Origin: Chthoniobacter flavus
Lineage (GTDB): Bacteria; Verrucomicrobiota; Verrucomicrobiia; Chthoniobacterales; Chthoniobacteraceae
Reading direction: 5' to 3'
Assembly (NCBI GenBank): GCA_945861435.1
Contig: CAMAUX010000012.1
Location: 1-64,000, forward strand
DNA: 64,000 nucleotides
Below, one piece after another: positions 3,885 to 62,677 of the stretch. Positions within the stretch are counted from its first letter, which is position 1. The number at the start of each line of letters is the position of its first letter. The notes beneath the pieces are model-generated. The model saw only the letters and a list, made by a program, of their open reading frames with translations. It was not told where the DNA came from and did not search any database. The position numbers and the translations under genes are program-made.

Positions 3885-3933
3885 CGCCCTCGGTGGGCGA
3901 ACAAGGCGGAATAGGATAGCCTCTGGAAAAGGC

Positions 3934-4311: not shown

Positions 4312-4529
4312 GGAAATACTCGTGTGTTTTGCGGAGCAGCCAGAGGGGCGCTGGTTGCACAGGGAAAAACTTGGGGGGGAAATCCTAACGGGCCCGCCGA
4401 TGGGCGGTAAGAAGACATTAGTTTTGAGTCCCATTTCGGGCAATATAAAATGCGGATTCTGGAGGGAATCGGAGCCCTGTGCCCCGCTCGTCCTGACAGC
4501 GCCAAACGCCAGAATCGCTCTGGTCCCGC

Positions 4530-4555
4530 AAAAAACGCCGCGCGGTATTACGCGG
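4530..4555 (-). terminator. Possible intrinsic terminator after pepA
   Basis: Read on the minus strand, CCGCG (4555-4551) and CGCGG (4542-4538) form a short GC hairpin overlapping the pepA stop codon, followed by CG and six T residues. The stem is only five pairs, so strength is uncertain. Confidence 0.4.
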
Positions 4556-41088: not shown

Positions 41089-41137
41089 TTGTGACATTTT
41101 CCCTTCAATTGTGACGCCGCAGCCATCTGGTTGTAAC
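41089..41137. promoter_or_regulatory. TTGTGAC-type repeats between the cytochrome and porin genes
   Basis: TTGTGAC occurs at 41089-41095 and 41109-41115, with TTGTAAC at 41131-41137. Spacings are 20 and 22 bases, about two helical turns. The heptamers resemble those in the 61 kb divergent region, which keep an exact 11-bp register. Here only the last pair fits that register (22 bases), so I rate the site lower. It lies ~90-135 bases upstream of the OprO/P-like porin start. Confidence 0.4.
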
Positions 41138-41224: not shown

Positions 41225-42388
41225 ATGCCCAAACTGATTCGTCTCCCCTTTGCCCTCGGCGCGGCCGCCGTTCTGCTCGCCTCCGCGGGCACAGCCAGCG
41301 CCGGTCCCGACGCCACACTCTCCACTGCCGCGCCCGCAAAGGAGGCCAGCATTTTTGATGAAATCTGGAGCTGGCCCTCGATCTACAAAAACAACGAGGC
41401 GGAGATTCTCAATGAGATCCGGTTCGTCGGCCGCTTCCAAGTCGACCAGTACAACGTCGACTCCGACCTCGGGCATGATCAGGACTGGATCGTTCGCCGC
41501 CTCCGCCTCGGTCTCAAGGTCGACCTCTTCCAGCGCCATCTCCAGTTGCATGTGGAGACCGACATCGACCCGCAGAACGACAACCCCGCCTACCGCAGGC
41601 TCACCGACGCCTACCTCGCATGGAAGTTCAGCGAGGCCCTCAAGCTCACCGTCGGCAAGCAGGGAGCCAAGTTCACCCTCGATGGTGCCACCTCGTCCAC
41701 CGAACTCATCACCATCGACCGCAGCAACCTCGCCAACAACTTCTGGTTCACCGAGGAGTACGTCCCGGGTGTCAGCCTCAGCGGCAAGTACGACCACTGG
41801 CTCTACAACGCCGGCTTCTTCAGCGGCGGTACAAAGACCCCCGAATTCGGCAACTTCGACGCCGGCAACTTCGGCCTCGCAAGCCTTGGCTACGACTTCG
41901 GCAGCGTTCTCGGCGTCAAGAAAGCCGTCCTCCGCGGAGACTACGTCTACAATCAGCGCAACAAGGAGAGCACCTTCACACGCTCCTTCGAGAACCTCGG
42001 CTCCCTTGTCTTCATGCTCGATAACAAGAACTGGGGACTCTCCACCGACTTCACCCGCGGCCAAGGTTTCGGCAGCCAGGGCGACGCCTTCGGCCTCCAA
42101 GTGATGCCTTGGTACAACATCACCGAGAAGCTCCAAGCCGTCTTCCGTTACACCTACCTCAGCGGCGACGAACCCAACAGCATCCGGTTCGCCCGCTACG
42201 AAAACACCCTCACCGGTGGCAAGGGCGATGAGTTCAACGAGATCTACGGCGGCCTCAACTACTACTTCTACGGACACCGCCTCAAGCTGCAGACCGGCCT
42301 GAGCTACGCCACCATGCACGACCGCGCCAACGACGGCGGTCAGTACGAAGGCTGGTCTTGGACCACCGGCGTGCGCATCAGCTGGTAA
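41225..42388 (+). CDS. Phosphate-selective porin O/P-like outer membrane protein
   Basis: A 387-residue exported beta-barrel with a signal peptide (MPKLIRLPFALGAAAVLLASAGTASA). The family is the OprO/OprP porins, which import phosphate or pyrophosphate across the outer membrane. Supporting stretches are 'LNEIRFVGRFQVDQYNVDSD', 'DWIVRRLRLGLKVDLF', 'YRRLTDAYLAWKFSEALKLTVGKQGAKFT', and a closing aromatic strand 'GWSWTTGVRISW'. In other bacteria such porins are induced by phosphate limitation. Family-level annotation often does not prove phosphate selectivity. The gene converges with the giant exoprotein gene and has a terminator in between. Confidence 0.85.
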   Translation: MPKLIRLPFALGAAAVLLASAGTASAGPDATLSTAAPAKEASIFDEIWSWPSIYKNNEAEILNEIRFVGRFQVDQYNVDSDLGHDQDWIVRRLRLGLKVDLFQRHLQLHVETDIDPQNDNPAYRRLTDAYLAWKFSEALKLTVGKQGAKFTLDGATSSTELITIDRSNLANNFWFTEEYVPGVSLSGKYDHWLYNAGFFSGGTKTPEFGNFDAGNFGLASLGYDFGSVLGVKKAVLRGDYVYNQRNKESTFTRSFENLGSLVFMLDNKNWGLSTDFTRGQGFGSQGDAFGLQVMPWYNITEKLQAVFRYTYLSGDEPNSIRFARYENTLTGGKGDEFNEIYGGLNYYFYGHRLKLQTGLSYATMHDRANDGGQYEGWSWTTGVRISW

Positions 42389-48400: not shown

Positions 48401-51400
48401 GCCCCGTCCGCTTTCGAACCCGTTGAGGTAGCCGATCCGGACCTTGGCGTCACAAGGAACGCCCCGGGCAGTAGCGCGTAGCGCGCCGGAAGCAGCGTGT
48501 ACGTCCCGGCCGCCAGGCCCGGACTCGCCCCCAGCGTGATCACGTCGCCGAGCGCAAGCTTGCTGCTGGTGTAACCGCGATCCCCACCCAGACTGCCGGA
48601 AGGATCCGCCGGATTGAAGGCGCCGTAAGGCGCGTAATCGAACCCGAGGTCCGGAAGCACCGCAAAAATATCCGCGCTCGAGAGGATATCCTTCGATCCC
48701 CCCGGCCCTTTCACGAACCGGTACGCATAGAGGTCGCCCCCCCCCTGAATGTCGACCTGCGATCCCGGTCCAAGATCCACCGACTGCCCCGCCACAGTCA
48801 CCGCCTTGGTCGGCACCCCGCCGGCCGTGATGTCCGTCCCCGTCGGATCGATCCACGCCGTGTTGTTGGAGTTGAGCCCATACGGAATCAGCAAGCCAAG
48901 CCCCGTACGAGGATCCACCCCAGACACCGACGTCACGCTCCCCGCACCAAGCACCACCGTTCGCGCCTGCGGAACCACCGCCCCGCTGATCGTATCCACG
49001 GGCGCTGTCCCCGACCCATCCCATCCAATCTGAATCGTCCCCAACGGCGCACGTAAAACCCCACCCTGCCGGATCGCATCCGCGTACAGCGCAAGCTCCC
49101 CTCCCGCCGACAGCGGCACCGAACGCGTCGCACCGCCCACCACAGTGATTGAACCGCGGTTGGTCGGGCTGATGTCAATCGCACTGATCGTGAAGCGGGC
49201 TCCGGTCGTCGGATACACCTGCCCCGCTGTCAGCGTCAGACTGCCTTGAATGTCGAACGTCCCGTTTCCACGAACATCCCCGGCCGGCGCTGCAATCGAA
49301 GCGGTCCCGATGTTCTGCAACGAGAGATGGCCCAGATCCACCAACTGGGCCTGCACCCTCAGATCCCCGTCCCCACTCTTCGGAGCGATGAGCACGCGGT
49401 TGCGCTCCGAATTCCTGAAAAGGCTCCCCCGCTCCTGCTCCTGCTCCACACTCAACGGCGCAAGGAATGCCATGCCAAGACTTACGTAGGGTGCCTCGAG
49501 CTTCAGCACACCGTCCGTGCTGAGAACCCCGGTCTCGCCCACCGCGATGCTGCGCTGCGCCCGCAATTCCACCGCCCCGGAAAACTGCACGCCCCCCTTG
49601 AGCGCGAGCGCCCCGAATCCCCCTTGAGAAAAACGATCGGCGACAAACTGGCCGCCACCCGTCAGCGCCCGACCGGAACCGTCGCGCACCGGCAATCCCA
49701 CCAGTTGCTGCCCCGCCGTAAACGCCTGCTGCAGCGTGGAGCCCGTCTGGCGCACCACCAACGCAAGATCCAGCGGACTCAGCGGCTCCGTCTCCTTCGG
49801 CAACTGACCGGACGACACGGTAAGACTCCCCGCTTGCGCCGAGGCCCCACCCGCGGCCCCAAGAAGCGTCGCATCCGGGAAAAGCATCTGCCCCCCTGAA
49901 AGCGTGATTCCGCCCCCATTGCTCGAGAGTCTCGCCGCCACCAAGTCCATCCCGCCTGCTGCCTCCGCCGCAGATCCCGCCACAGACAACGCACTCGGCG
50001 CCACATCCACCACGCCTGAAGTCCCCGAGACGTCGATGCGCCCGCCAGCCTGCGTCACAATATTGCCCGACAGGGTCACCTGCCCACCTCCCAAGACTGA
50101 CCCCACCCGGTTGCCGCGCGCATCAGGAACAATCAGCGTGGTACCTGCAGCGGACAGACTCGCATCCGGCCCCAAATGCAGCGTGCACAATGCCTGTGCA
50201 CGGTTGGCAAAGAGGGGGAGTGAATTGCGCGCTGCCTGCAGACTGATGCTCCCACCGGGAACCAAAATCGTCCCGTCCACCGCAAGCGTATCCGCCTTCA
50301 ACGTCACCCCACCCAGCGGATCCGTGCTGATTCGCGCCCCTTTCTCCATCACCAGATCTCCGCGCAAGAGAAGCAGATTGTTTTGGAACGAATCCACCAC
50401 GTTGAGCGCCCCAAAGCTGAGCACAGCAGGCGCACGCACACCCACCGGCTTGAGACCCGCCACCAACTGGATCTCGTCCTCCGACAACGACCCCACTCCC
50501 ACCCAACTGTGCACCTGCGGCGCTACAATCGTCCCGCTTGCAATGACAAGCCCCGGGCCAAAGTTGAACGTCCCGCCGCCAGACGTGCCGATCCCCACCA
50601 AGCTAATACTGCCAAAACCCTGTTCGCTGAAAGATGCCGGATTCAACGCAAGCCCGCTCCCGGCCACACCACCCACTCGAATGAGCGGCGCCTGCACCGA
50701 GACCACTCCTGCACTCGTCCCTCCCGAATACCCTCGCAACTCCGCACCCAGCTGCAATCCCCCTCCCAACACCGACGTGAGGCTGAGATCCTGCCCAGCC
50801 TTCAGGTTCAGCGCACCCGCACGACCATAAGTGATCCGCCGCAGCGCGCTGACACGCACCCCGCCCGAAACGTCAAGCAGCGCCCCATGAGCCAGCTCAA
50901 GATCCAAGGCATTGAGAGACAACGTCCCTCCATGAATCGCTAGGGAGGACGTGCGAACCGCCTCGCTTCCCGAACGCTCATCCACCTGCAACCCCGCCAC
51001 ACTCAGCACTGCCCCGTCTGCCACCGTCACTTTCCCCCGGCCCACACTCACCGGCGGTGTGCTCATCCCTTCCGGCGCTGCGGTGAGCTTCGCAGCCAGT
51101 GAGGGAGAAATATTGAAAGCCGAAAGCTGGAGCCGCCCGCCGGGAGCCGATAACTGGCCGCCCACGGTGATGTTCTTCCCCGCAAGCGACAGCTGCCCAC
51201 CCGGTGCCGCCGCCAGAACCACTCCCGCCGGCACCGACACATCCCCGTCCACATTCTCCAACTTCAGCGATCCAAATCCCAGAGTCCCCAGCACCCCAGG
51301 CGCGAACACCGCGTCGTCCTTGCGCTCCTGTCTCAATGCATCCGGCTCGCCGCCCACTCCAAGCGCAAATGCCGCCGGCTCCACTTGGATGGCACCTGTC

Positions 51401-53727
51401 TCAAAGCGCACCTTCGGCGCGGCGGGTGAGTAGCTCACAAACCCTGAGCCAAACCGTTGCTGTGCAGAGAACGACACCTCCAAAAGCCCGGGGGTTGGAG
51501 CCGCACTTCTCTGGCGCGGCCCGCTCACCGTCGTCCCCACCAGCACACCATCCAGCGCAGCAGATCCCGCGCTGATTCGCAGCACTCCGCCCGCAGCTCC
51601 CTGCTGATATCCCGCCTCATAATAGCCGCCCGTGGACAGCAGGCTGCGCGAGAAACTCTCCTGCACCCCGTGACGTGCGTCCTTGAGCACAAGACTCGGG
51701 GTGAGAATCCCATCGTAAACCCTTTCAGGTGTCGCTTTGGCAATGTCGTACACCACCCCGTTGGAAACCAACCGGGTGGTCGCCATCATTCCCCCCTCAT
51801 ACTGGATCCATCCCCCGGAAACATCGATACGTGCCCCCTCCCGCACGACCACCGCTTCGCCGGCATTAAACACCGCCCTCCCACCAGCCGTCATCAACTC
51901 GCCCACCCCCCGCTCCACCAGCCCCACATAGCCCGAAGCATTCGCCAACGGCGTCCCCACCCAAGCCACGCCGTTGTAGACCCCGCTCTCACGCATATCC
52001 ACCGTCACCGTCTTCCCCCTCAACACCCCGGAGCGCTGCAACGGCGAGTCCGCAAGCTCCGAGCCTCGCAGCTGCACCGCAACAAGATTGCGCGCCACCG
52101 GAATGCGCACATCGCGCGATCCCGACAGATCGATCGTGGCCCCTTGGTCCACATAGATCTGCCCGCCATCAAAAACCAACTGATACCCCCCGGGCACCGC
52201 CTGCCAGCTGCCCGCATTCACCGTCAAATCCGCGGAGGGCGCCCAGAGGAGCGCATTCTCGTCCACATGCACACTGTGTCCCTGGAGCACCACCGCTGAG
52301 TTGAGCGCAAGCTGGGTGCCCACCACCGTCTTGGCGCTCTCCCACTCCGGCACCACCTGTGTGAGGCTCTCTTTGGCCAGATGCACGTGACCCGTCGCCG
52401 TGAACGCCACACCCACCTTTTGCGTCAGCGGATCGGTCACCCGCGTTGCATTGTACTCGGCACGAAGGTCGAGCCGCCCGTTGAGCGACACCGAAGTGGT
52501 GCTCAGCAGTGCACCGGCCTGCTCCAACGTGCTCCCCACCATCGTCACGTTGCCCCGCGGCGCCTCAATCACCCCCTCGTTGGTCACCGTCCCGCCTGCG
52601 GTTCCAGCCGCAGCCAGTGGATCCACCACCTTCCCCACAAAAACATCCAACCCACGCAGCGAAGGGTCCGTGCTCGCGTGCCCCACAAACCCGACCTGCT
52701 CACCCGCAGCGAGAATCGTCTGCCCGTCCGGAGTCGAGATCGTCCCCCGGTTCGTCACCACGGGCCCTATCAGCGCCACCCGCCCGCCCACACTGTCCGC
52801 TCCCGTCGGGGCCGAGATCTGCGCACCACGCTCCACCACCACATCGCCGCTGTGCCCATCCGCCAATAGCGAGCGCACCGGGTCGAAGGCGGGCACCGTG
52901 CTCCCCGAGAGCTGCTCCACCTTCAGGCTCGAGAAAAGAAACTGAAAGTCCGGATTATTCAGCAACCCGCTGCTCACGAGGTTGTCGTTGATGGGAAGCG
53001 ACGACGCCACCAGCGTGTGCGTGTTCACCTGACTGCCCCCGCCAAAAATAATCCCGTTCTGGTTGATCACATACACCTGCCCGGGCGCTTCAATCTTACC
53101 GAGAATCTGCGACGGACTCTGACTCGGATCGCTCACCTTGTTGAAAGCCACCCAGCGACGATTCCCGTCCCCACCCGCACTCTGGTCAAATTTCAGCGTT
53201 GTCGCTGAGCCCACGTTGAACGTCTTCCAATTCAACACCGCCTGCTGGCTGGTCTGCTCCACCGTCACCACCTTCCGAGCGGATAAGCCGGCGCCGACAT
53301 TCGTTTCCACGGGAAGCTTCGCTCCATTCCAAAGGGGAGTGTTCACCGCCGCCCCGGGCGCCACCTCCAAACCGCCCGTCACCAAACCGTTGGGCACCGC
53401 GGACACACTGGCGCGCGCCGTCGCCCTCGCCGAGTCCTGCAACGCCTTCAGCGATGTCAGCACCTGCGACGAGCGCGTCACCGCATCCCCTCCCGCCACC
53501 ACCCCAGCACCACCACCCGAACTCGCTGAAAACGCCGCATCCGGAGCCTTCACCCCACCAGAAACCCTGCCACCCGACCCGCGATACAACCCACCGCCTC
53601 CCACGCGCGTGTCACCCGCCTGCGCCGAAAGCGCAAACGCCGCGGTGCAACATGCACCCACGATCGCCGCGCGCCGCAACAGACAGTCCGTTGTCCCGCG
53701 CCGCACTGTGGAAGGGAGGCGCATCAT
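42493..53727 (-). CDS. Giant haemagglutinin-like exoprotein (two-partner secretion TpsA, 3744 aa)
   Basis: A secreted surface protein passed through the outer membrane by an FhaC/ShlB-type partner. A signal peptide (cleavage near 'SAQA|GD', residue ~37) and a Gly-rich spacer (~40-150) precede the TPS secretion domain (~150-330). That domain contains 'QQAVLNWKTFNVG', 'SQILGKIEAPGQVYVINQNGIIFGGGSQVNTHTLVAS' (normally NPNGI; Gln223 replaces Pro) and 'GRVALIGPVVTNRGTIS'. The rest is a long right-handed beta-helix of GxLxL-type repeats with hardly any cysteine. The C-terminus is charged ('GGPDEEDAEKKRRVEEAGPSAL'), with no toxin, autotransporter or sorting domain. The start overlaps the previous gene's stop (ATGATGA), so translation is coupled. 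Likely role: adhesin or surface filament; the ligand is unknown. Confidence 0.9.
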   Translation of the reverse strand: MMRLPSTVRRGTTDCLLRRAAIVGACCTAAFALSAQAGDTRVGGGGLYRGSGGRVSGGVKAPDAAFSASSGGGAGVVAGGDAVTRSSQVLTSLKALQDSARATARASVSAVPNGLVTGGLEVAPGAAVNTPLWNGAKLPVETNVGAGLSARKVVTVEQTSQQAVLNWKTFNVGSATTLKFDQSAGGDGNRRWVAFNKVSDPSQSPSQILGKIEAPGQVYVINQNGIIFGGGSQVNTHTLVASSLPINDNLVSSGLLNNPDFQFLFSSLKVEQLSGSTVPAFDPVRSLLADGHSGDVVVERGAQISAPTGADSVGGRVALIGPVVTNRGTISTPDGQTILAAGEQVGFVGHASTDPSLRGLDVFVGKVVDPLAAAGTAGGTVTNEGVIEAPRGNVTMVGSTLEQAGALLSTTSVSLNGRLDLRAEYNATRVTDPLTQKVGVAFTATGHVHLAKESLTQVVPEWESAKTVVGTQLALNSAVVLQGHSVHVDENALLWAPSADLTVNAGSWQAVPGGYQLVFDGGQIYVDQGATIDLSGSRDVRIPVARNLVAVQLRGSELADSPLQRSGVLRGKTVTVDMRESGVYNGVAWVGTPLANASGYVGLVERGVGELMTAGGRAVFNAGEAVVVREGARIDVSGGWIQYEGGMMATTRLVSNGVVYDIAKATPERVYDGILTPSLVLKDARHGVQESFSRSLLSTGGYYEAGYQQGAAGGVLRISAGSAALDGVLVGTTVSGPRQRSAAPTPGLLEVSFSAQQRFGSGFVSYSPAAPKVRFETGAIQVEPAAFALGVGGEPDALRQERKDDAVFAPGVLGTLGFGSLKLENVDGDVSVPAGVVLAAAPGGQLSLAGKNITVGGQLSAPGGRLQLSAFNISPSLAAKLTAAPEGMSTPPVSVGRGKVTVADGAVLSVAGLQVDERSGSEAVRTSSLAIHGGTLSLNALDLELAHGALLDVSGGVRVSALRRITYGRAGALNLKAGQDLSLTSVLGGGLQLGAELRGYSGGTSAGVVSVQAPLIRVGGVAGSGLALNPASFSEQGFGSISLVGIGTSGGGTFNFGPGLVIASGTIVAPQVHSWVGVGSLSEDEIQLVAGLKPVGVRAPAVLSFGALNVVDSFQNNLLLLRGDLVMEKGARISTDPLGGVTLKADTLAVDGTILVPGGSISLQAARNSLPLFANRAQALCTLHLGPDASLSAAGTTLIVPDARGNRVGSVLGGGQVTLSGNIVTQAGGRIDVSGTSGVVDVAPSALSVAGSAAEAAGGMDLVAARLSSNGGGITLSGGQMLFPDATLLGAAGGASAQAGSLTVSSGQLPKETEPLSPLDLALVVRQTGSTLQQAFTAGQQLVGLPVRDGSGRALTGGGQFVADRFSQGGFGALALKGGVQFSGAVELRAQRSIAVGETGVLSTDGVLKLEAPYVSLGMAFLAPLSVEQEQERGSLFRNSERNRVLIAPKSGDGDLRVQAQLVDLGHLSLQNIGTASIAAPAGDVRGNGTFDIQGSLTLTAGQVYPTTGARFTISAIDISPTNRGSITVVGGATRSVPLSAGGELALYADAIRQGGVLRAPLGTIQIGWDGSGTAPVDTISGAVVPQARTVVLGAGSVTSVSGVDPRTGLGLLIPYGLNSNNTAWIDPTGTDITAGGVPTKAVTVAGQSVDLGPGSQVDIQGGGDLYAYRFVKGPGGSKDILSSADIFAVLPDLGFDYAPYGAFNPADPSGSLGGDRGYTSSKLALGDVITLGASPGLAAGTYTLLPARYALLPGAFLVTPRSGSATSTGSKADGASIVAGYRFNGLGGAPSGTVLNKPFEVSPGSVVRTRADYRDYTASTFLRDGALANDAVLPRLPNDAGRLLLQATAAMQLRGSVVSTTLSAGRGGAVDISSPVDIFVAGSQANTEGFSGLVLDAGQLSAFGAESLLIGGRRSGASDGSLVTVTTSNLIVDNKGTPLVGADIILAASSTLTMAENSEISGTGLLPQGAEVLRVGDAASAGSGDGVLVRVSASADAVFERSGVSATAASGIIAQIDAGAHLAGGSVTVDSSAGAVFASSVRFDTAAVGLSAFQISLQLDSGAASSGGLVLERQVLDVLTQARSLSLLSYSSIDLCGAGQLGSRSLERLSLQAGSVRGIGLSGGEVTIAAGELSLGNRAAGTALTSAGSLSGSLVVDAGLLRLGSNTVGIDLMSSVQLGSEGGVVIEGTGALVSQGAMRLVAPVVTGTNGVAYSLQAGGAFELSAGAGTGSGTGSGPVPGLGVGLAVQGTSVTVDSVVRLPGGQLSLKATSGNVAMRGNAKLDVAGVTRSFFDAERSIRGGGVVLQADAGSVQLAPGSVLDVSGGGAAAAGSLSVVTILGQFDFGGTLKAQGGGSFSLDTHDLGRTAGLDLVLDGAGFTTSRVLRVRTGDVQLDSVAAKSRVYDLAADTGALRVTGSVDVSGTTGGQIRLSAGGALTLLAGATLDASGQKLDAAGLGGFVLLQTRATSTGIGLLSGSIIRLGVGAGVGGTLQLRAPQTAGVTDVAIAPIAGTVTGSGRVLVEGFHTEDANSASGAFIDDYKSNAIANASAFMANAGGIRTKLLGVGVRGDGLDGSGVLRVRPGEEIVNSSGSLTLKADWDLASLRYGSTRSVVGNSGAALFNALGQAITPGSEPGVLTLRALGSITFNGSLTDGFGIGSGLLADVPKVGFNKLARWKEELLPVFADGSAQESWSYRITSGADFGAADARRVRPLALLGTGTGVSTGSVLVGTYQKTPSASLSTLFQVIRTGTGDIEINAGRDVRLLNQFATIYTAGARSATVAEFETPRLFSEETGLALYPAQYSTGGGSVRIEAQNDILHQTLTNLVETPESQRQLPMNWLYRRGYVDSVTGEFGTAKYGDKASTTWWIDFSNFFEGVGALGGGNVSLLAGRNVSNVDAVVPTNARMPKGKPSEGALVELGGGDLLVRAGRDIDGGVYYVERGKGVLEAGNEIKTNATRSPSLNKLLDTGVDFSEYAPQTWLPTTLFVGKSSFEVRAGRDLLLGPVANPFLLPGGQGNTPWYKTYFSTYSADASVEAASIGGTVTLRNALTLPVSSVGGMLPMLQAWLQNVLVTSGDTATGPAYEALRLNETLATPFSTMSTVMAGTLHATAYSGSISLAGGLTLAPSPKGTLELLAAGSVSGLQVTGFTGGGVTGDTGSTDRFANWGMGTINVSDASPALLPSLTSPYGYQGVAGTGPAATETRLSFLQAIDGLFSETGATQGTKAVLGVQLTLHAAGLLHAEDTEPLRIYAGEGNLSGITLFSPKAARVLAGRDMTDVALYIQNTRDSDVSVVASGRDMVPAAPNSPLRVAAQTTGNLLTTGSLPAAGDLQISGPGVLEVLAGRDLDLGPSVSNGDGTGLGIVSVGNARNPALPLTGSELFVGAGLGPVSGLSQSSIKFDGLRTLLGEPTLAGYLDEVEPDVTVAAFDLLGEGRRAQILMEVFFRVLRDAGRDYGDAASAAYGTYKAGFDAISALFPGDTWHGDLSLTARGIKTQSGGSLNLFAPGGRVLVGLDVAGSNPLDQGILTESGGSISLFTSDGVSVGTSRIFTLRGGDEIIWATRGDIAAGSASKTVAAAPPTRVLIDPQSGDLKTDLAGLATGGGIGVLATVQGLPPGNIDLIAPQGSIDAGDAGIRVSGNLNLAAARILNAENIQVSGSSAGAPSGASAAAPSLGSMGTASSSAVAASNAATEAGKQARGQGNGAGDSPSIVDVEVVGFGGPDEEDAEKKRRVEEAGPSAL

Positions 53728-54329
53728 GGCTTGATCCGCTGCTCCGAGATCTTGTCCGTGTAATCCTGGACGAGGTTCTGAAGCTTCACCCGCGTGATCC
53801 CAATGAAGGGCTCGCGCGCCGTAATCGCATCCCCAATCCCGAACTTCCGGTACCGCTCCAAAATCTCCGTGGCGATCTTGTGCAGCGCCACGTTCCGGGT
53901 TTGCTGCTCATCACACCGCCGCTCCAGCACCGCCGCCTTGTCCGTCATCCGCACCTTCTCCTTCTCCAGAGCGGTTGCGATCTCAGTCACCTTTTGATGA
54001 CCCGCCTTCCACTTATCCAGCGCCTCGGCGAGCCGGGCATTCTCGGCCGCACCAGCCCCCAGCTTCGCCTTCAAGGCCTTGAGCTCCTCCTGATCCGCAG
54101 CCGCCTGCTTCTTGATCTGCGCAAGGTCGGCCGCGGCCGCCTTGAGCTTTTGATCGTTCTCGGCCTGTGCCGCCTGCAGGTTCGCCTTCTCGGTCTCCGC
54201 CGATCGGAGCTGCAGCATCGTGTTGCGCAGAGCCTCCCGCATTTTCTGCTCCGCGGGATCCGCAGCGCGAGCCTGCATGAGGGCGACGCCGGACAGCACG
54301 AGGCCCAGCCAGAATGGGTTTTTTGCCAT
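53724..54329 (-). CDS. Periplasmic coiled-coil protein in the TPS operon
   Basis: A 201-residue protein with a signal peptide (MAKNPFWLGLVLSGVALMQARA). The mature part is almost wholly coiled coil ('LQLRSAETEKANLQAAQAENDQKLKAAAADLAQIKKQ', 'KAGHQKVTEIATALEKEKVRM'), with a short C-terminal part having 'RKFGIGDAITAREPFIGITRVKLQNLVQDYTDKI'. The gene starts two bases after the porin stop and its stop overlaps the start of the giant exoprotein, so it is translated with it. A periplasmic chaperone, tether or scaffold for exoprotein export is a reasonable inference, but I do not recognise the family. Confidence 0.8.
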   Translation of the reverse strand: MAKNPFWLGLVLSGVALMQARAADPAEQKMREALRNTMLQLRSAETEKANLQAAQAENDQKLKAAAADLAQIKKQAAADQEELKALKAKLGAGAAENARLAEALDKWKAGHQKVTEIATALEKEKVRMTDKAAVLERRCDEQQTRNVALHKIATEILERYRKFGIGDAITAREPFIGITRVKLQNLVQDYTDKISEQRIKP

Positions 54330-54331: not shown

Positions 54332-56314
54332 CTAGAATTTTCCTGAAAAGTCCACTTCCAACGTGTCGTTCTTGAAGGGCGCCCCAGCCACCTGCGTGGC
54401 ACTCATCCACTTCACCCCCACCGTCACCCGCGGCGAAAGTGCGAGCGAACTCCAGAGCATGAACCCCTTCATGTTCGTCCCACCCACCCCGAAGTCCGAA
54501 TCCACAAAGCCGTCAATCGCGGCGTCCGATTCCATGTACCGATAGTTCAGCCCCGCGCTCCAGTCCCAGCGCTTGTCCATCGTCGGACTCCCCACACGCA
54601 GCCCCAGCAGCCACGCCGTGTCGCCGCCGACAAATGCACCATCGTCGTACCGCACCACTCCACCCGCGTCTGCCACCCCAGCACGGTTGTTCACCGCCGC
54701 GCGCTTTCCATCCGGGTCCCTCCTGTCCATCGCCCCCCGATCAAAGGCAAGGTTCTTGGCATACTCGCCATAAAGCGAAATCTGGAAGGGCTCGAACTGG
54801 TTGAAGTCCACGCGAGCCGTCAGCGCCCCAGTCCGGAACGGCGTCGCCAGCCCGTAGTACTGGAACTGAAGGATCTGCCCATCGTTGTTGTCGGTGCCCT
54901 TCTGAATGTTCCGCAGCCGCCGATAGGTGTTCCCCTTCTGCGCAAATGTGGGACGCGTCGAGTCCGTGTTACCGGCGTCCTGCGCGGTGAGCGGCAGGTA
55001 GGGATCAGACAACCGTCCCTCCACCCCCTTGAAATCATAGAGCGCCGCACCCAGCTTCACGTCCACCTTCGGCCGCACCTTCCACTCCACCCCGAACTGA
55101 CCGCCGTAAAGCCACTTGTCTGTACTCGAGAATTTCTTCGACTCGTTCGTCGCAAAATTCAGGTCCGTGTTGAAAACCGGGAACATCCCTCCCGCCCCAA
55201 AGAGCGTCACCCCCTCCGCCACACGATACCGCCCCCTTGCTCCGATCCCGTCCAATCCCACGTCCTCGTCCCAAATAATGTCCGTGGAAAAGAACGGGTT
55301 GTCGAATCGGCCAGCCATCACCGCGAGCGTCCCCTCCGGCCGCCCACCCATCTCGTACTGCAGAAACCCGCGGTCCAGCCAGAGGCTGTACTTGCTGAAA
55401 TTACCGCCCTGCCCCGAACCCACAGCGCCCAGACTTTGGTTCGTGGACACCGGCGTGTTCGAATCCCCAGTCGCGATCCGCATCCCCATGCTGAACCCAT
55501 CCCCAAGATCCGCTGAAAGCCCACCCCGCGCACGAATCCGAAGCCGCGAACGCTCCTGATCCGCATTGAGATAGGGCGGATTCAACACTCCTGCCTCGTC
55601 GAAAGGCGAACCCGTGTTGATCGCGTTAAAGTTCGGGAAGATCCCAGCACCGCCGTTGTTCCCCGGATAAAACAAACCCTCACCACGGATGCGCACATCT
55701 CCAAACACCTTGAGGCGGGCAACCCAAGGCGGAAGCGTGTTCGGTGCCACCCATCCCTCCTTGCGCGCCAACTCCAGCACCTCCGCTCGGAGTTCATCCC
55801 GGATCTGGCTCTTCACCACCGGCGGCACATACGTCACACGCACCGTGTCCTCACCCGCCGCCGGCAAATCACCCGCACCGCCCTGCTGCGCAAGCGCCGC
55901 CCGAACCGCCGCATCCACAAAAACCTGCTGCTGTTGTGCCGAAGCCGCACGCGCATGCTCCGTGTCCTCCTCTGCCTGCTTCACCAATTCGTCAGCCTCG
56001 TCCTTCGCGAGCAAACCCTTGGCCACCATCCGACGGATCAGATTGAGCGTAAGACTCTCCGATGCACCAGCCCTGGAAGCCGAAGCCGAAGACACCGAAG
56101 CCGGAATACCCACCGGCAGCAGCTCGCCCACCGGATCAGCCGCCACCTCCGCTGGCACCGCCAGTTGACTCGCCACCGGACCCGGCCGCGCACCAGGCAA
56201 CTGCCCGGAGCCACCAGGCTCCACAGCCAGCAGCAGACTCGCCGGCCCCGCAAACAGCGGCCAGCTCATGCGGCGGACAAGACCGCCGGAACGAAGACTT
56301 GGGGTGGTTTTCAT
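54332..56314 (-). CDS. Large putative porin (Porin_5-like)
   Basis: A 660-residue outer membrane beta-barrel from the ATG at 56314, with an N-terminal export signal (RRMSWPLFAGPASLLLAVEPGG). An N-terminal periplasmic part (~90-190) carries an acidic helix 'MVAKGLLAKDEADELVKQAEEDTEHA' and an Ala/Gln-rich stretch. The barrel follows with 'LKVFGDVRIRGEGLFYPGNN', 'ERSRLRIRARGGLSADLGDGFSMGMRIATGD', 'DIIWDEDVGLDGIGARGRY' and a closing strand 'FKNDTLEVDFSGKF'. This matches the putative-porin family common in Verrucomicrobiota and Bacteroidetes. No TonB-dependent receptor plug is present. It is the only integral outer membrane channel inside the operon apart from the secretion partner. Confidence 0.85.
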   Translation of the reverse strand: MKTTPSLRSGGLVRRMSWPLFAGPASLLLAVEPGGSGQLPGARPGPVASQLAVPAEVAADPVGELLPVGIPASVSSASASRAGASESLTLNLIRRMVAKGLLAKDEADELVKQAEEDTEHARAASAQQQQVFVDAAVRAALAQQGGAGDLPAAGEDTVRVTYVPPVVKSQIRDELRAEVLELARKEGWVAPNTLPPWVARLKVFGDVRIRGEGLFYPGNNGGAGIFPNFNAINTGSPFDEAGVLNPPYLNADQERSRLRIRARGGLSADLGDGFSMGMRIATGDSNTPVSTNQSLGAVGSGQGGNFSKYSLWLDRGFLQYEMGGRPEGTLAVMAGRFDNPFFSTDIIWDEDVGLDGIGARGRYRVAEGVTLFGAGGMFPVFNTDLNFATNESKKFSSTDKWLYGGQFGVEWKVRPKVDVKLGAALYDFKGVEGRLSDPYLPLTAQDAGNTDSTRPTFAQKGNTYRRLRNIQKGTDNNDGQILQFQYYGLATPFRTGALTARVDFNQFEPFQISLYGEYAKNLAFDRGAMDRRDPDGKRAAVNNRAGVADAGGVVRYDDGAFVGGDTAWLLGLRVGSPTMDKRWDWSAGLNYRYMESDAAIDGFVDSDFGVGGTNMKGFMLWSSLALSPRVTVGVKWMSATQVAGAPFKNDTLEVDFSGKF

Positions 56315-56337: not shown

Positions 56338-57012
56338 TTAGTTCGGGCGGCGCGCATTGAGCCGAAGAACGATCGGGGTCGGCATCCCCTCGGGAGGCGG
56401 TTCCTGCAGCTGCAATCCCTTGAGCACCTCGCCCGTCAGCGCTGCATCCAGCTGAGGATCTCCGGTCGAGGACGCCAGCGCAGCACGCGTGATGCGCCCC
56501 TCGCCGTCCGGCCATACCTTCACCTCCACGCGCAAACTCGCGCTGCGCAGCTTCGGATGACTGCGCAGGGCATCCGCAATGCGCCCCTGCACCTTGCTCC
56601 CGTAGCGCGCCCAACGCGCCTTCGCGCCTGCACCGCCAGGCCCCCCACCCATGCGGCCCATCCCGTTGCCGTGCGCCAGACCAAACCCGTCCGGAGGTCC
56701 GTCCCCCTTCAAATTCGTTCCCAACGCGCTGTCCGGCGGCTCATCCTTGGGCGAGTCGTCCGGCTTCTCCTCATTCTGATCCGCAGGATTGGGCTCTATC
56801 TTCGGCTGGTCCACTGGCGGCGGGGGCGGCGGTGGAGGCGGCGGCGTCGACGGCAGCGGGGTGATCCGCACCATGTTCATCTCGGGCGGCCTGCTCCGCG
56901 TCGAGTGGGAGGCGCTCGTGAGCTGCTGGTACGTGAAACCCATCAGCGCCAGAAGAGCCACTCCCACCACCACCCCAAGCCACTTGTGCTTCTTGAAAAT
57001 ACTCTCGTCCAT
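56338..57012 (-). CDS. tonB: TonB family energy transducer
   Basis: A 224-residue protein that transmits proton-motive energy from ExbB-ExbD to the outer membrane. It shows one N-terminal membrane helix (~12-28, GVVVGVALLALMGFT), a Pro-rich periplasm-spanning stretch (PPPPPPPPPP at ~57-66, then KIEPNPADQNEEKP), and a C-terminal TonB domain ('LRVEVKVWPDGEGRITRAALASSTGDPQLDAALTGEVLKGL'). A Gly/Met-rich segment (~108-130) precedes it. It begins 18 bases after exbD. No TonB-dependent receptor gene lies in the window, so its outer membrane client is not obvious. Confidence 0.88.
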   Translation of the reverse strand: MDESIFKKHKWLGVVVGVALLALMGFTYQQLTSASHSTRSRPPEMNMVRITPLPSTPPPPPPPPPPVDQPKIEPNPADQNEEKPDDSPKDEPPDSALGTNLKGDGPPDGFGLAHGNGMGRMGGGPGGAGAKARWARYGSKVQGRIADALRSHPKLRSASLRVEVKVWPDGEGRITRAALASSTGDPQLDAALTGEVLKGLQLQEPPPEGMPTPIVLRLNARRPN

Positions 57013-57030: not shown

Positions 57031-57438
57031 TCACTTCCCAGCCGCCTTCGTCGCCAGCCCCACCTGGCTGAGCCCGAGCCGCCCCAGCACGTCGAGCACA
57101 TCCATCACCCCTTGGTACTGCGTGAGACTGTCCCCTCGGATCACCGCCGGAAAATCCGGGTTGCTCGCCTTGTGCGCCGTCAGCCTCTGTTCGAGCTCCT
57201 GCAGCGTCACAGGAACCGTATCCAGAAAGATCTTCCCCTCGTTGTTCACCGTGATCGACTTCGTCTTCGGCTTCGCAAGGCTCGGCGTATTCGTGCTCGC
57301 CTTGGGCAGGTTCACCTTCATGCCCTGCACGGATGCCGTGCACATCAGGATGAAGATCACCAGCAGCACGAACACCAGATCCACCATCGGCGTGATGTTC
57401 ACCTGATCGTACGGTGCGTTGTCGTCTTGAAGTTGCAT
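57031..57438 (-). CDS. exbD: ExbD-like biopolymer transport protein
   Basis: A 135-residue component of the proton-driven motor. After a short cytoplasmic N-terminus, 'VNITPMVDLVFVLLVIFILM' forms the membrane helix, with Asp20 in the position of the proton-carrying Asp of ExbD. The periplasmic part has 'VNLPKASTNTP', 'KSITVNNEGKIFLD' and 'LEQRLTAHKASNPDFPAVIRGD', all typical. It is flanked by the ExbB fusion gene and tonB in the same operon. Confidence 0.92.
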   Translation of the reverse strand: MQLQDDNAPYDQVNITPMVDLVFVLLVIFILMCTASVQGMKVNLPKASTNTPSLAKPKTKSITVNNEGKIFLDTVPVTLQELEQRLTAHKASNPDFPAVIRGDSLTQYQGVMDVLDVLGRLGLSQVGLATKAAGK

Positions 57439-57499: not shown

Positions 57500-59344
57500 C
57501 TAGTGGCCTCCGATGTCCACCATGTTCTCGTCCCCGTAGAACTCGGCCATCTTCGTCACAAACTCGTCCACGAAGACGTGCATGTCGTTGCTCGCCTCCT
57601 TCACCCGCGAGGTGAGGTAGTTGTAACCAAACAACGCAGGGATCGCCACGACCAGCCCCGCCACTGTCGCCACCAGCGCCGCCGCAATGCCGGGCGCAAT
57701 CGCGTTCACGTTCACATCCCCGGCCGCCGCAATCGCCGCAAACGTGATCATCACCCCCACCACCGTCCCCAGCAGCCCAAGAAACGGCCCACCCGAAATC
57801 GCGATGGTCAGAAACACCATGAGCTGGTTGAGCTTCTGCGTCTCGCGCACCATCCCCGCATCCATCGAAGCCCGGATCGCCTGAATCGAACGCGCGCTCA
57901 GCACCCGCGTATCCGGCGCCGCATCCCCCGCCACACGATGCCGGATCTCCTCCGCCCCGATGTGATAGATCCGGTACACGGAGGCGTGCCGCAGCAGCTT
58001 CTCCGCGTCGCTGTCCACACGCCCACCCACGCTTCGCACTTTGTCGGGATCTCCATGGTCCAGCGCCGTGAGGTCCGCCGCCAGATGCCGCCACTCGCTC
58101 ATGAAGAGCGCGTTCCCCTTCGCATTCGCGTTGAGGTAGGAGGTCTTGATCACCATCACCCACCAGCTGATCACCGCCATCACCGCCAGCACCCCGATGA
58201 CCACCCAACCGTCCACCGTCAGCGAACGCATCAGAATCCCGAACGTCCCACTCATCCACGTCGACGCCTGCTCGTCCGCCCCCAGCACCACCAGCCTCCC
58301 CGCCTTCTCCCCGCCCTGGCCATAAGCAACCATCTTCAGAAAACCCGCAGGCCGCGCCACCTTCGCAATCTGCAATTCGTCCATCTCCCCCACAAACCCC
58401 TCACCACCCGCCGTATCGCCGCCGATCGTCAACGGGCCGTTGAGCGCAGGCAACCCCGCTGCAAGACTCGCATACGGCTCGCCATCCACCAAAAGCTGGA
58501 TGCCGCCAGCCTCCGCAACCACCGACAAATGCTTCCATGCGCCGGGCGCCAGCGCCGCCCCCGCCCCGCTCTTCTGCGCCGCACCACCCGCCGCGACCGC
58601 CACGTACGGAACCCCGTTGCTCAGCCCCACCACAAAACTGTTCGCCCCCTCGCGCCTGCTCAAAATCACCGCCTCCGGCACAGGCGCCGATGGCTTGATC
58701 CAGAACGAAAGCGTCGCCGCACCGCCCGCCTTCCATAGCAACGAAGGGCTTGCCGGCACCGACACCGCAGTCTTTCCGGCCAGCTTCAGGCCGCGTCCGA
58801 TCATCGCCCCCTCCACGGCGGCTCCGGCGCTCTGCGCGTTATTTCCCGGGATCGAGAAATCCGCCGGCGCAGTCCCCTTCTCGTTGAAGTGATACACGAG
58901 CACGGTATCCACGTCGTAGGTCGCCTTGGCATCCTCCAGCTTCACCCCGGAGTTCCCTTGGTTGCCGTAGTAGAGCCAGAAGCTCGTCGCCTCGCCCGGC
59001 TTCACCTCCGGCACCTTCACCCATGCAAAGGCCTCGCCGAGCAACCCGTCGAATTTTTCAAGGTGATGCGTCAGCACCGTCTTCTCATCCTCACTGACAA
59101 AGCGCAGGTCGCTCCCATCCTCGCGCGCCGCCGCAAACTGAAAGTCCGCTTCGTGCAACCGCACAAGCACCGCCACGCTCCCACCCACGGGATCCGTAAT
59201 CGCCACCCCCTTCGAACTCGCATCCACCGTGATCTTCTTGCGCACGGTCCAGTCGTTGTTCCACCACGCCTGCGCACTCGCGCTCATGGCTTCAAGCCCG
59301 AGAAGGGCCATGCAGATGTACTTGCTGATGCTTCGAATCGTCAT
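57500..59344 (-). CDS. DUF2341-LamG-like-ExbB/TolQ fusion protein
   Basis: A 614-residue protein with a signal peptide (MTIRSISKYICMALLGLEAMSASA). The N-terminal DUF2341 module starts 'WWNNDWTVRKKITVD' and contains 'SFWLYYGNQGN'. A LamG-like jellyroll domain (~185-345) has 'AATLSFWIKPS', 'GAWKHLSVVAE' and 'DELQIAKVA'. The C-terminal ~240 residues are a MotA/TolQ/ExbB channel subunit with three membrane helices (VVIGVLAVMAVISWWVMVI; GPFLGLLGTVVGVMITFAAI; AAALVATVAGLVVAIPALFG). The motor subunit therefore has its own large periplasmic binding domain. This fusion is known from PVC and related genomes; what the ectodomain contacts is unknown. It is followed by exbD and tonB. Confidence 0.9.
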   Translation of the reverse strand: MTIRSISKYICMALLGLEAMSASAQAWWNNDWTVRKKITVDASSKGVAITDPVGGSVAVLVRLHEADFQFAAAREDGSDLRFVSEDEKTVLTHHLEKFDGLLGEAFAWVKVPEVKPGEATSFWLYYGNQGNSGVKLEDAKATYDVDTVLVYHFNEKGTAPADFSIPGNNAQSAGAAVEGAMIGRGLKLAGKTAVSVPASPSLLWKAGGAATLSFWIKPSAPVPEAVILSRREGANSFVVGLSNGVPYVAVAAGGAAQKSGAGAALAPGAWKHLSVVAEAGGIQLLVDGEPYASLAAGLPALNGPLTIGGDTAGGEGFVGEMDELQIAKVARPAGFLKMVAYGQGGEKAGRLVVLGADEQASTWMSGTFGILMRSLTVDGWVVIGVLAVMAVISWWVMVIKTSYLNANAKGNALFMSEWRHLAADLTALDHGDPDKVRSVGGRVDSDAEKLLRHASVYRIYHIGAEEIRHRVAGDAAPDTRVLSARSIQAIRASMDAGMVRETQKLNQLMVFLTIAISGGPFLGLLGTVVGVMITFAAIAAAGDVNVNAIAPGIAAALVATVAGLVVAIPALFGYNYLTSRVKEASNDMHVFVDEFVTKMAEFYGDENMVDIGGH

Positions 59345-59367: not shown

Positions 59368-61017
59368 TCAGAACTCCGCCCAAACACGGAACGTGAAAAG
59401 CATGTCCCCGCGCTCCGTCGTCCCCACCCGCCGCAGCGGGAACCCCGCGTCCAGCGAGCCGTAGGAGTGCTCGAAAATCTGCAGCCGGCTCCCCGCCCCC
59501 ACGCTCGCCATCTCGATCACCGACGCCTGGTCCGGAAGCGCGTCGTTGATCCCAAGCACGCCCCCTTCCGCAAAAACATACACCCGCCAATCCTGCACCG
59601 GCTTCAACCCCGCGAGACGCCCGAGCGACGGACTCCGCAGCTCAAGCGAACCCACCAACGCATTATCCCCCAGCGCCGCCGATTCCAGATACCCGCGCAC
59701 CGTCCCCAAGCCACCCGCGCTGAACTGCTCGTTGTCCAGAAGCGCGCTCTGCGTCGCCTGCCCCTGCAACTTCATCTGCCCCTGAAAACCCGCAGGCAGA
59801 TCCCGCGTGTGGGAAAGCTCCGCTCGCGCGTAAAAGTAATCCCCATCAGCCTTGTAACGCTTCACCGCAAACTCCTCCGACGCACTCCCCGTCCCGCGGA
59901 AATGCATGTGCACACCGGCGCTCAACTCTGTGGTGGACGCCGCACTTGACCACGTCGCGTTATAGACCGCACTCAGCGGCCAGTAGGTCACCGGCGTCAC
60001 ATCGCTGAAATCCCCAATCGTAAGCGCCTGCAGGAAGTGCTTGTAGTCCAGCCCGAGACTCACCGAGTGGTAAAACCCCTCGGCCCCGGGCAGCGTCATC
60101 ATCAACCGCGCACCCCACACGTCCCCACGCCCCGCCACCGCCGCCCCGCCCAAAGTCGACACATTGCTGTCCTGCTTCACCCCCTGCAGCATCAGACTCA
60201 GCCAGCTCGCCTCCGGAAACCGGGCCAGATAAAAACCCGAGATCACCTTCGCATCCTCAGGCCGCTGCGGCGCATACTGGAGGTTCAACCCCAGCCCGTG
60301 CCCCTTCTGCCAGAGGTTCTGGTAACTCACCGAGGTGTTGAGCCGCAGATCCGTCGTCCCGCTGCTGTGCCGGTTGTTCAACTCCACGCTCCCGTGCAAC
60401 GGCAGCTTGTCTTCCACGCTCAACTCCACATCCACCGTCCCCGCCTCCCGCCCCGCACGCAGCGAGGGCGTCACCCGCATGTCCGGATGCTGGTTCAGCG
60501 CTAGAATCTCCGGAGACACCCGGTTGAAATCCACCACCGCCCCAGCGGCCAGCGACGGCGCCCGCCTCCGGATCTCCTCCAGCGAGAAATACCGCGAACC
60601 TTTCACCCGCATCTGCCCCACCCGATTTTCGATCACCTGCAAAACAAACACCCCGCGCCGGCCGCTCTGCTCGGGCAACTGCACCCCCACGGCCTGATAT
60701 CCCTTCGCCCGAAACGCCCCCTCCAGCGCCGCCCGCGCCCCCTCCACATCCTCCACACTGCGCCCCGGCCCGAGAAAGGGATACACAGCCTCGCCGATCT
60801 CCTGCTCACTCAGAAGCTTCGAGCCGGTGACGCGGAATTCACGGATCGAGAACCGCGGCGCGTCCGCCTCCCCCTGCGCTCGAAGCAACCCTCCACCCAA
60901 AACCATCCACCCGCTCAAGAGGACCCTCCCGAGACGCAGGCAGCCGCTTGCGCCGAGCCATGCTCGGTGGGCGAGTTGCTGCCTGTGGTTCTTCATCATG
61001 GGCGATGTTCTGCGCAT
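59368..61017 (-). CDS. Two-partner secretion outer membrane transporter (ShlB/FhaC/HecB family, TpsB)
   Basis: An Omp85-family pore that secretes the haemagglutinin-like exoprotein. The 549-residue product has a signal peptide (hydrophobic part 'GRVLLSGWMVLGGGLLRA'), two POTRA domains (~57-200; 'IREFRVTGSKLLSEQEIGEAVYPFLG', 'VGQMRVKGSRYFSLEEIRRR'), and a 16-strand barrel with the conserved loop-6 motif 'GLGTVRGYLE'. The last strand ends in the aromatic 'FTFRVWAEF'. ATGs at 60999 and 60996 are alternative starts. As the first gene of the seven-gene series it is closest to the divergent regulatory region. Confidence 0.92.
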   Translation of the reverse strand: MRRTSPMMKNHRQQLAHRAWLGASGCLRLGRVLLSGWMVLGGGLLRAQGEADAPRFSIREFRVTGSKLLSEQEIGEAVYPFLGPGRSVEDVEGARAALEGAFRAKGYQAVGVQLPEQSGRRGVFVLQVIENRVGQMRVKGSRYFSLEEIRRRAPSLAAGAVVDFNRVSPEILALNQHPDMRVTPSLRAGREAGTVDVELSVEDKLPLHGSVELNNRHSSGTTDLRLNTSVSYQNLWQKGHGLGLNLQYAPQRPEDAKVISGFYLARFPEASWLSLMLQGVKQDSNVSTLGGAAVAGRGDVWGARLMMTLPGAEGFYHSVSLGLDYKHFLQALTIGDFSDVTPVTYWPLSAVYNATWSSAASTTELSAGVHMHFRGTGSASEEFAVKRYKADGDYFYARAELSHTRDLPAGFQGQMKLQGQATQSALLDNEQFSAGGLGTVRGYLESAALGDNALVGSLELRSPSLGRLAGLKPVQDWRVYVFAEGGVLGINDALPDQASVIEMASVGAGSRLQIFEHSYGSLDAGFPLRRVGTTERGDMLFTFRVWAEF

Positions 61018-61097: not shown

Positions 61098-61159
61098 CTG
61101 TGACATTCCCGTGAACGGCAGATGACGGAAATAAGGCGGGATTGTGACTTTCCTGTGTC
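61098..61159 (-). promoter_or_regulatory. Pho-box-like array facing the TPS operon
   Basis: Plus-strand heptamers CTGTGAC (61098), CCGTGAA (61109), AGATGAC (61120), TTGTGAC (61142) and CTGTGTC (61153) all keep an 11-bp register, with one slot (61131) degenerate. Read on the minus strand in the usual PhoB orientation they become NNGTCAY units such as CCGTCAT, CGTTCAC and ATGTCAC separated by four bases. The array ends ~80 bases from the TPS transporter start, a normal distance for an activator site. No binding evidence exists. Confidence 0.55.
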
Positions 61160-61247
61160 GCCCGCGGAACCCTGCATTCATCAGCATCCCCGGCCTGCCG
61201 CACACACGGACCCCCTCTTTGCCTTCGCGCCTGAAACCGTCGCGCCA

Positions 61248-61265
61248 GCGTCACCTGCTGGTCAC
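61248..61265 (+). promoter_or_regulatory. Pho-box-like pair facing the PstS-like gene
   Basis: GCGTCAC (61248-61254) and TGGTCAC (61259-61265) are spaced 11 bases apart, in the orientation of E. coli-type CTGTCAT units. A GTGAC (61272-61276) follows in opposite orientation, then an AT-rich CATTAT at 61281-61286 that could be a -10. The site is ~117 bases upstream of the ATG. Confidence 0.45.
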
Positions 61266-61381
61266 CGAAATGTGACGGTACATTATTTGCCTCCACGCGG
61301 CGTGCACCCCTAGCCTCCGCCCAGCCGCCACAGGGTACACACCCATCGGCAGCTGCCAAACCAACACATCCAACCAAAAAG

Positions 61382-62677
61382 ATGAAAGCCAACCAATTCA
61401 TTCTCACCGGGCTCATCGCCCTCGGCTCCCTAGTCGCTCACAGCGCACAGGCCGTCACCTCGGATCTCGTCCTCCGTATCACGGGTTCCACCGCCTTCCG
61501 CTCACAGACTCACAGCGGAATCATCGCTGCTTATGGTGGTTCCCAAGCGAGTGGTGGAATCACCTCCTACGCCTACGTAGGCACCAGCGCCTCCGGCGCT
61601 TCCCAAGCCATCTACTACGGCACGATCAGCGGCAAACTGGTCATCATCAAAACTTCCTGGTCCGGGTCCGAGGCAGGCGTGCGCACCGTCGCCGCCAACA
61701 GCAGCTCCGCTTCCGCGAACTTCCTCGCCGACACCATCCTCGATAACACCGGATCGGGTGTCGCCGCTCTCCAGACTGGTACCGCCTCCGTCACCGCCGG
61801 CACCACCGCCGAAATCCCCGACGTCGCAATGGCCGACAACTACCAGAGCTCTTCCGCGTTCTTTGGTTCCTACGGTGGAGTCACCTACCCAACCCTAACG
61901 GAAGTGACCCTCACCCCCAGTGGTGACCCTGTGGGCATCGTCGCCTTCCAGTTCGTCACAAGCGCAGCCTCCCCGATCACCGATATCACCACCGACCTCG
62001 CAAAGTCTCTCTTCAGCACCGGCGCCCTTCCGTTGTCCTTCTTCACCGGTGACTCCACCAGCACCGGCTACGTCTTCGCCACCGGCCGCGATCCGGATTC
62101 GGGCACCCGCTTGGATACCCTGGCCGTGATCGGCCTCGGCGCGCAGAGCGCCGTCAAGCAGTACCAGCCCTCGACTTCCGCTACCGGCGGGCAGGTCGCC
62201 GCAGCCGGCGGAAGCATCGCCTTCAACATCCCCGCACCGGCCGGCACGGTGAACGGCATTTCGGTGGCTCTCTACAACAACGGCTACAACAGCGGCGGTA
62301 ACCTTGGCAAAGCCCTTGCCAACGCCACCACAGCCATGGTGACCAAAGACTTCCCCACCACCGGCACCGACACCACCGGGGGATACTACGTCGGCTACAT
62401 GAGCACCGGCGACGCCTCAACAGCAGCAGGATTATCACCCGCCGCCATCCGCCTCACCTTCAACGGCGTCCCTTATACCGTAGCCAACGTGCTCACGGGT
62501 AAGTACCCGTTCTGGTCCTACGAGCACATGTACATCCGCTCCAGCATGAGCGTTACCGGCCAGGCCGTGGCACAAACCATCGCTAACGGCATCAACAGCG
62601 CCGTCACCAGCGGCCTCACACCCTCCGCCATGCTCGTGAAACGGTCCACCGACGGCGCACGCATCCTCACGAAGTAA
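61382..62677 (+). CDS. Exported PstS-like (type 2 periplasmic-binding fold) protein
   Basis: A 431-residue exported protein with a signal peptide (MKANQFILTGLIALGSLVAHSAQA). Several stretches recall the phosphate-binding protein family: 'VLRITGSTAFRSQTHSGI' near the N-terminus (anion-binding 'GST' loop), 'SWSGSEAGVRTVA', 'DVAMADNYQSSSAF', 'SGDPVGIVAFQFVTSAAS' and 'GRDPDSGTRLDTLAVIG' (the 'SGTR' helix-cap motif). The similarity is motif-level. The protein is longer and more Ser/Thr/Gly-rich than classical PstS. No pstCAB permease genes are in the window, so it may bind a solute for another purpose. It is divergent from the TPS operon and preceded by a Pho-box-like pair, which supports a phosphate link. 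Confidence 0.6.
   Translation: MKANQFILTGLIALGSLVAHSAQAVTSDLVLRITGSTAFRSQTHSGIIAAYGGSQASGGITSYAYVGTSASGASQAIYYGTISGKLVIIKTSWSGSEAGVRTVAANSSSASANFLADTILDNTGSGVAALQTGTASVTAGTTAEIPDVAMADNYQSSSAFFGSYGGVTYPTLTEVTLTPSGDPVGIVAFQFVTSAASPITDITTDLAKSLFSTGALPLSFFTGDSTSTGYVFATGRDPDSGTRLDTLAVIGLGAQSAVKQYQPSTSATGGQVAAAGGSIAFNIPAPAGTVNGISVALYNNGYNSGGNLGKALANATTAMVTKDFPTTGTDTTGGYYVGYMSTGDASTAAGLSPAAIRLTFNGVPYTVANVLTGKYPFWSYEHMYIRSSMSVTGQAVAQTIANGINSAVTSGLTPSAMLVKRSTDGARILTK

Follow-up and report, generated by a model that had tools for sequence, protein, structure and literature searches.

Candidate Pho boxes of a clade-specific form at a two-partner secretion operon and a divergent PstS-like gene

Two arrays of short repeats lie between the gene for a two-partner secretion transporter and a divergently transcribed PstS-like gene. 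Are these arrays Pho boxes, and do they place the genes on both sides under phosphate control? The initial annotation had proposed so from five heptamers on the left, a pair on the right and an 11-bp register, all within the window, by which we mean the whole 64,000-nucleotide stretch of DNA analysed here. Its reading of the letters was confirmed throughout. The left heptamers are CTGTGAC (61098), CCGTGAA (61109), AGATGAC (61120), TTGTGAC (61142) and CTGTGTC (61153), and the right pair is GCGTCAC (61248) and TGGTCAC (61259). The 11-bp register is kept within each array, and the arrays stand 80 and 117 bases from the start codons at 61017 and 61382. Both arrays proved longer than had been described, with six units on the left and four on the right: the grid slot skipped at 61131 (ATAAGGC) is a weak left unit, and the right array has further units at 61237 (CCGTCGC) and 61270 (ATGTGAC).

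Read on the minus strand, the left array (61100–61161) comprises six 7-mers with an 11-bp period facing tpsB: GCGACAC (61155–61161), AAGTCAC (61144–61150), the weak CCGCCTT (61133–61139), CCGTCAT (61122–61128), CGTTCAC (61111–61117) and ATGTCAC (61100–61106), separated in this order by the four-base spacers AGGA, AATC, ATTT, CTGC and GGGA. The right array (61237–61276, plus strand) faces the PstS-like gene and comprises four 7-mers of the same period, CCGTCGC, GCGTCAC, TGGTCAC and ATGTGAC, separated by GCCA, CTGC and CGAA. GTCAY occurs in AAGTCAC, CCGTCAT, ATGTCAC, GCGTCAC and TGGTCAC, with a leading T (TGTCAY) in ATGTCAC only. Because the core GTNAC is its own reverse complement, array orientation rests on the remaining letters; a motif scan placed the left array on the minus strand and the right array on the plus strand, each directed toward the adjoining gene, in line with the opposite facing first proposed. 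A sigma-70 promoter scan of the intergenic region found no promoter, and possible −10-type letters (TACATT/CATTAT) can be made out by eye at 61279–61286.

The seven minus-strand genes from tpsB to tpsA are spaced by −4 to 61 bases and were therefore read as one operon. They are tpsB (59368–61017), encoding the two-partner secretion outer-membrane transporter with POTRA_2 and ShlB domains; an ExbB-like proton channel with DUF2341 and LamG domains fused to its N-terminus (57500–59344); ExbD (57031–57438); a TonB-like energy transducer (56338–57012); an outer-membrane porin (Porin_5; 54332–56314); a 201-aa exported protein without a family match, coiled-coil-like by eye (53724–54329); and tpsA (42493–53727), encoding a giant 3744-aa exoprotein that is conserved in relatives and, on reading its sequence, filamentous-haemagglutinin-like.

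On the other side, the plus-strand gene at 61382–62677 encodes an exported protein of 431 aa of the phosphate-binding type. Pfam gave no match for it, it is absent among the PF12849 matches, and it falls below every PstS family cut-off (TIGR02136: 21.6 bits, cut-off 206.6); its only long named match comes from a Candidatus Methylacidiphilales genome, which makes a placement of the host in Verrucomicrobiota plausible. Its kind was settled by a fold search with the predicted structure (pLDDT 82, from a 15-sequence alignment), in which 4lat ranked first (E 5e-10, TM 0.77 on the target) and the 25 best matches were phosphate-binding proteins. The loops GSTAxR and GRDxDSGTR are conserved and, by analogy with PstS, would bind phosphate.

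We derived a motif from the promoters of 11 phoU-arsC-pst operons, one from the own genome and ten from relatives. Unit pairs in these promoters lay 11 bp apart in 12 cases, 22 bp in seven and 33 bp in four, with at most two at any other distance, and 9 of the 11 promoters contained an 11-bp pair. The regular expression for the unit was picked after some promoters had been inspected; the peak at multiples of 11 is independent of that choice. The clade unit is G[TC][CA]A[CT] (GYMAY), the last position usually being C and the gene-proximal unit often GTAAC. The own pst operon, on contig C31, consists of a phoU-arsC fusion, pstS, pstC and pstA, with GTCAC-CCAATC-GTAAC directly upstream of phoU. 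Its promoter is weaker than the arrays of the window: it has two good units only and scores 12.3 with three units. The gene heading this operon, a PhoU fused to an arsenate-reductase/low-molecular-weight phosphatase domain (L003 10976–12073, G000:C31), is kept in ten relatives.

The orientation of these units bears on another explanation of the GTNAC words, namely that they are palindromic or everted sites of an unrelated CRP-type dimeric regulator, such as GTCAC-N6-GTGAC at 61261–61276. The self-complementary core would suit such a protein, and 61259–61276 is readable as an inverted pair. However, the phoU promoter units are asymmetric GYMAY words in one orientation, the sense strand having 12 of the 11-bp pairs and the other strand one, and a reader of inverted repeats would have no need for multiples of 22 and 33 bp. 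We regard a CRP-type regulator as highly improbable.

We built a position matrix from 23 units in the phoU/pst promoters of eight relatives, leaving out the own genome, and scored the window with it. The best distinct 3-unit scores were 20.3 at 41109 (plus strand), 15.6 at 61248 (plus), 14.5 at 20390 (minus) and 14.2 at 61100 (minus); with five units, the left array ranked first and the right array second. The left array scored 20.1 with five units and 20.8 with six; in the control, 400 kb of DNA taken unselected from the own genome, the highest 5-unit score was 13.9. The right array reached a 4-unit score of 16.9, with one control match at 18.8 and the next at 13.0. Among 2000 first-order Markov random 364-mers, scored with a matrix of 25 units of which two came from the own genome, the 4-unit score was reached by none for the right array and by 0.1% for the left. 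Two matches were set aside: the one at 20390 shares bases with the start codon of a kinase-like gene and is probably due to chance, and a control match on contig C3 (L187, 18.9) lies within an apparent RNA-polymerase coding sequence and was taken as chance, at about one per 400 kb at that score.

While the 400-kb sample served as the matrix background, the genome-wide view came from pattern searches. In the 5.35-Mb genome there is a single occurrence of the exact pattern GTNAC-N6-GTNAC-N6-GTNAC, at 61250–61276 in the right array; this count is weak by itself because about 0.3 are expected by simple counting. GTCAY-N6-GTCAY gave 11 matches genome-wide against 11 for the reversed control and, being unenriched, was not used as evidence. 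Three GYMAY units gave four matches genome-wide and the control gave none. No recognised Pho gene lies at any of the four; the match on contig C51 sits at a boundary between coding frames.

TpsB homologues were found in 36 of 57 related genomes. In the 550 bases upstream of 29 TpsB orthologues, the period-11 median was 13.2, compared with 1.1–5.1 at periods 8–10 and 12–14 (paired Wilcoxon 3e-5 to 6e-8), and 21 of the 29 regions reached p<0.05 against Markov sequence; these p-values are indicative, since the relatives share ancestry and are not statistically independent, and as the scan covers both strands, the box of a divergent gene may be counted. In a model-free comparison of 256 words, GTNAC had the most pairs at a distance of 11 bp upstream of TpsB (14 pairs at 12 loci), and no such pair inside the TpsB coding sequence. 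These results bear on chance or composition, that is, on the arrays being GC-rich intergenic DNA with a few look-alike heptamers. The expectation of about 0.3 exact triples per genome and the lack of genome-wide enrichment of two-unit patterns would fit such an origin, but the independent motif test, the period controls, the conservation in relatives and the period-specific enrichment upstream of TpsB orthologues argue against it. We therefore give chance very little credence and retain the Pho-box reading.

A third candidate Pho box, which has the best 3-unit score of the window, lies at the opposite end of the secretion cluster. It reads TTGTGAC-CAGCCAT-TTGTAAC with an 11-bp period (41109–41137, plus strand) and stands some 90 bases upstream of the start codon (ATG) of a gene for an OprP/OprO-type phosphate-selective porin (41225–42388, plus strand). 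This protein is the sole PF07396 match in the genome, at 59.4 bits against a curated cut-off of 20.9. Upstream of 13 OprP homologues of relatives, the period-11 median was 15.8, compared with at most 4.2 at other periods, and a strong period-11 box stood at a nearly constant distance in seven of them.

Among 19 separate pstS genes scored, eight had a clear dimer box, and a good box was absent from about half. The PstS-like operons were less even, with a period-11 median of 12.4 and scores of at least 15 at 6 of 15 loci. These operons are often headed by a PEP-CTERM-type gene, and in relatives too the PstS-like genes adjoin TpsA, TpsB or ExbB/ExbD genes. The initial annotation would have counted a lack of motif enrichment upstream of the pst and pho genes of related genomes against its reading; we found such enrichment at phoU-pst, TpsB, OprP, some pstS and phoB-type genes. 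The Pho-box reading of both arrays is supported, by sequence comparison only.

Several further features were observed. On contig C62 of the own genome (G000), L101 has a very strong four-unit box scoring 26.1 (3858–3897) between genes at 3016–3795 (minus strand) and 4098–7249 (plus strand), with a PhoB-type regulator nearby (2286–2978). The minus-strand gene is phosphoesterase-like and, judged only by its letters, may be PlcP/LpxH-like. The product of the plus-strand gene is a secreted Ig/Calx-beta protein belonging to the 'YSDGDLFLGFR' kind, which in relatives occurs next to PstS-like genes. A secreted family starting 'YxxGDLFLGFRxT...VNLG' separates the Pho box from the PstS-like gene, or is encoded near that gene, at L104, L109, L110, L114 and L118 (in addition to L101), and some of its members carry PEP-CTERM or Calx-beta domains. 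At L111 (6748–7545, G028:C42), a PstS gene is located about 2 kb downstream of the PstS-like gene, beside a giant TpsA-like gene.

Which regulator might read these boxes? The own genome has pst, phoU, phoB-type and phoR-type genes. One PhoB-type regulator, on contig C11, adjoins a PhoR/PnpS-type PAS histidine kinase (best models PnpS and phoR_proteo, at 346 and 304 bits, each slightly under its cut-off), and a second is encoded on C62. TIGR02154 (PhoB) is the best family for both, at 248.8 bits (C11) and 210.8 bits (C62); as both fall below the curated cut-off of 296.2, we call them PhoB-type. In 14 related genomes, PhoB-type genes lie within a few kb of the TpsB or PstS-like gene (L107, L108, L109, L112, L116, L117, L118, L158, L161, L162, L166, L175, L177, L178 and L179). 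Those at L109, L112 and L116 have period-11 boxes of their own, as expected under autoregulation.

The base-contacting residues of PhoB are T194, V197, R201 and R219 (PMC3264566). In E. coli PhoB numbering, T194, H198, R200, R201, R203, T217 and R219 are kept in both own regulators and in 13 of 15 locus-encoded ones; with a single exception, the PhoB-type proteins compared have T in place of V197. The own C11 regulator keeps T194, R201 and R219 and has T at position 197. This substitution (L100 7704–8408 and relatives) might accompany a shift of the half-site from TGTCAT to GYMAY. Regulators of the OmpR/PhoB family are known to occupy direct repeats in the form of tandem dimers, and for PhoP of M. 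tuberculosis the repeats tested had three and four units (PMC4832192). Arrays of four to six units agree with this.

Direct-repeat sites of such spacing are nevertheless common to the OmpR/PhoB family (PMC4832192), and the arrays could be sites for a paralogue of PhoB or for a different OmpR-family regulator that has the same 11-bp geometry and responds to an input other than phosphate. The candidates would be the second PhoB-type regulator (C62) and the regulators beside the relatives' clusters: the own genome encodes two or more PhoB-type regulators that agree in their contact residues, and a PhoB-type gene lies within the secretion locus in 14 relatives. However, the motif comes from phoU-pst promoters and is found again at OprP-type porin and pstS genes, so it is at least common to the phosphate regulon, and other OmpR-type regulators of the host lack the contact residues of PhoB. 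We consider control by such a paralogue unlikely, though less so than the CRP-type or chance explanations.

We conclude from these comparisons that the arrays represent a putative clade-specific form of the Pho box, with a GYMAY core, at a Pdt-like module. In all likelihood both arrays are Pho boxes, the left for the secretion operon and the right for the PstS-like gene, with the third box for the OprP-type gene. The secretion operon and the PstS-like gene are very probably switched on together at phosphate shortage, and the same predicted arrangement is recurrent across the bacterial order. In the mechanism that we propose, scarcity of phosphate would lead a phosphorylated PhoB-type protein to occupy the two arrays head to tail and to bring RNA polymerase to the divergent promoters on either side and, independently of these, to the OprP-type gene. 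The left array would activate the seven-gene operon tpsB-exbB-exbD-tonB-porin-small protein-tpsA, the right array the divergent PstS-like gene, and the third box, at 41109, the gene for the OprP-type porin at the cluster's opposite end. The 21-kb locus would form one phosphate-starvation module, combining export of a giant surface protein with phosphate-binding and outer-membrane uptake proteins. We infer PhoB binding, activation rather than repression, induction at low phosphate and the role of the secreted protein.

A literature search found no paper on a Pho-box motif for the bacterial group of the host, and the present result offers a testable clade consensus with several target genes. It would also link phosphate starvation, in a bacterium other than Pseudomonas, to a large operon for two-partner secretion that includes ExbB/ExbD/TonB and a porin of its own. 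Meeting such a module a second time, far from Pseudomonas and with partners of the PstS and OprP types, hints at the purpose that modules of this kind may serve. As a tentative idea, the locus might be a self-contained surface phosphate-acquisition module, in a gene order common to this Verrucomicrobia-like order and P. aeruginosa. A TonB/ExbBD-energised porin, a giant TPS protein and the PstS-type and OprP-type proteins would act together in capturing phosphate or polymers that bear it, with control by a PhoB-type regulator, which many members encode in the locus itself. If this is true, the Pdt system, known mainly by its nematode-virulence phenotype, would be primarily a nutrient-capture system.

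Compared with the E. coli-type Pho box (CTGTCAT-N4-CTGTCAT), the host sites share the 7-bp units, the 11-bp period, the head-to-tail arrangement and the GTCA core, and they too stand upstream of phosphate-acquisition genes. They differ in having the clade unit GYMAY instead of TGTCAT, four to six units and a spacer that is not A/T-rich. The host regulator keeps T194, R201, R203, T217 and R219 of E. coli PhoB, whereas position 197 is T rather than V in nearly all PhoB-type proteins of the clade. The PstS-like protein resembles the PstS of the Pst transporter in its predicted fold and phosphate-loop motifs, but it has 431 aa with insertions, scores below the family cut-off and is encoded in the window without PstC, PstA or PstB beside it, the pst operon being on contig C31. 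Similarly, the OprP-type porin has a PF07396 match and an upstream Pho box in common with the Pseudomonas OprP/OprO porins, although its match spans only positions 5–150 of the 370 in the profile.

The closest parallel in gene order is the Pdt/PUMA3 system. P. aeruginosa PhoB binds promoters of the pdt operon, whose genes are ordered pdtA-phdA-pdtB-exbB2-exbD2-tonB4-PA0696 (putative porin)-PA0697; exbB2-exbD2-tonB4 is a still uncharacterised putative TonB system, and the function of PA0696–PA0700 is unknown (PMC7035377). The host locus has the same TpsB-ExbB-ExbD-TonB-porin-small protein order, plus TpsA, the porin and small protein being alike by gene content and order, and it shares phosphate-starvation control through a PhoB box at the operon promoter, which on the host side is predicted from the letters. 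Both also have a PstS-type protein nearby, encoded in Pseudomonas by lapA, whose product we take to be PstS-like. The host locus differs in that no phdA was seen, TpsA is at the 3' end and ExbB carries DUF2341/LamG domains, and in many relatives of the host PhoB-type regulators are encoded in the locus itself.
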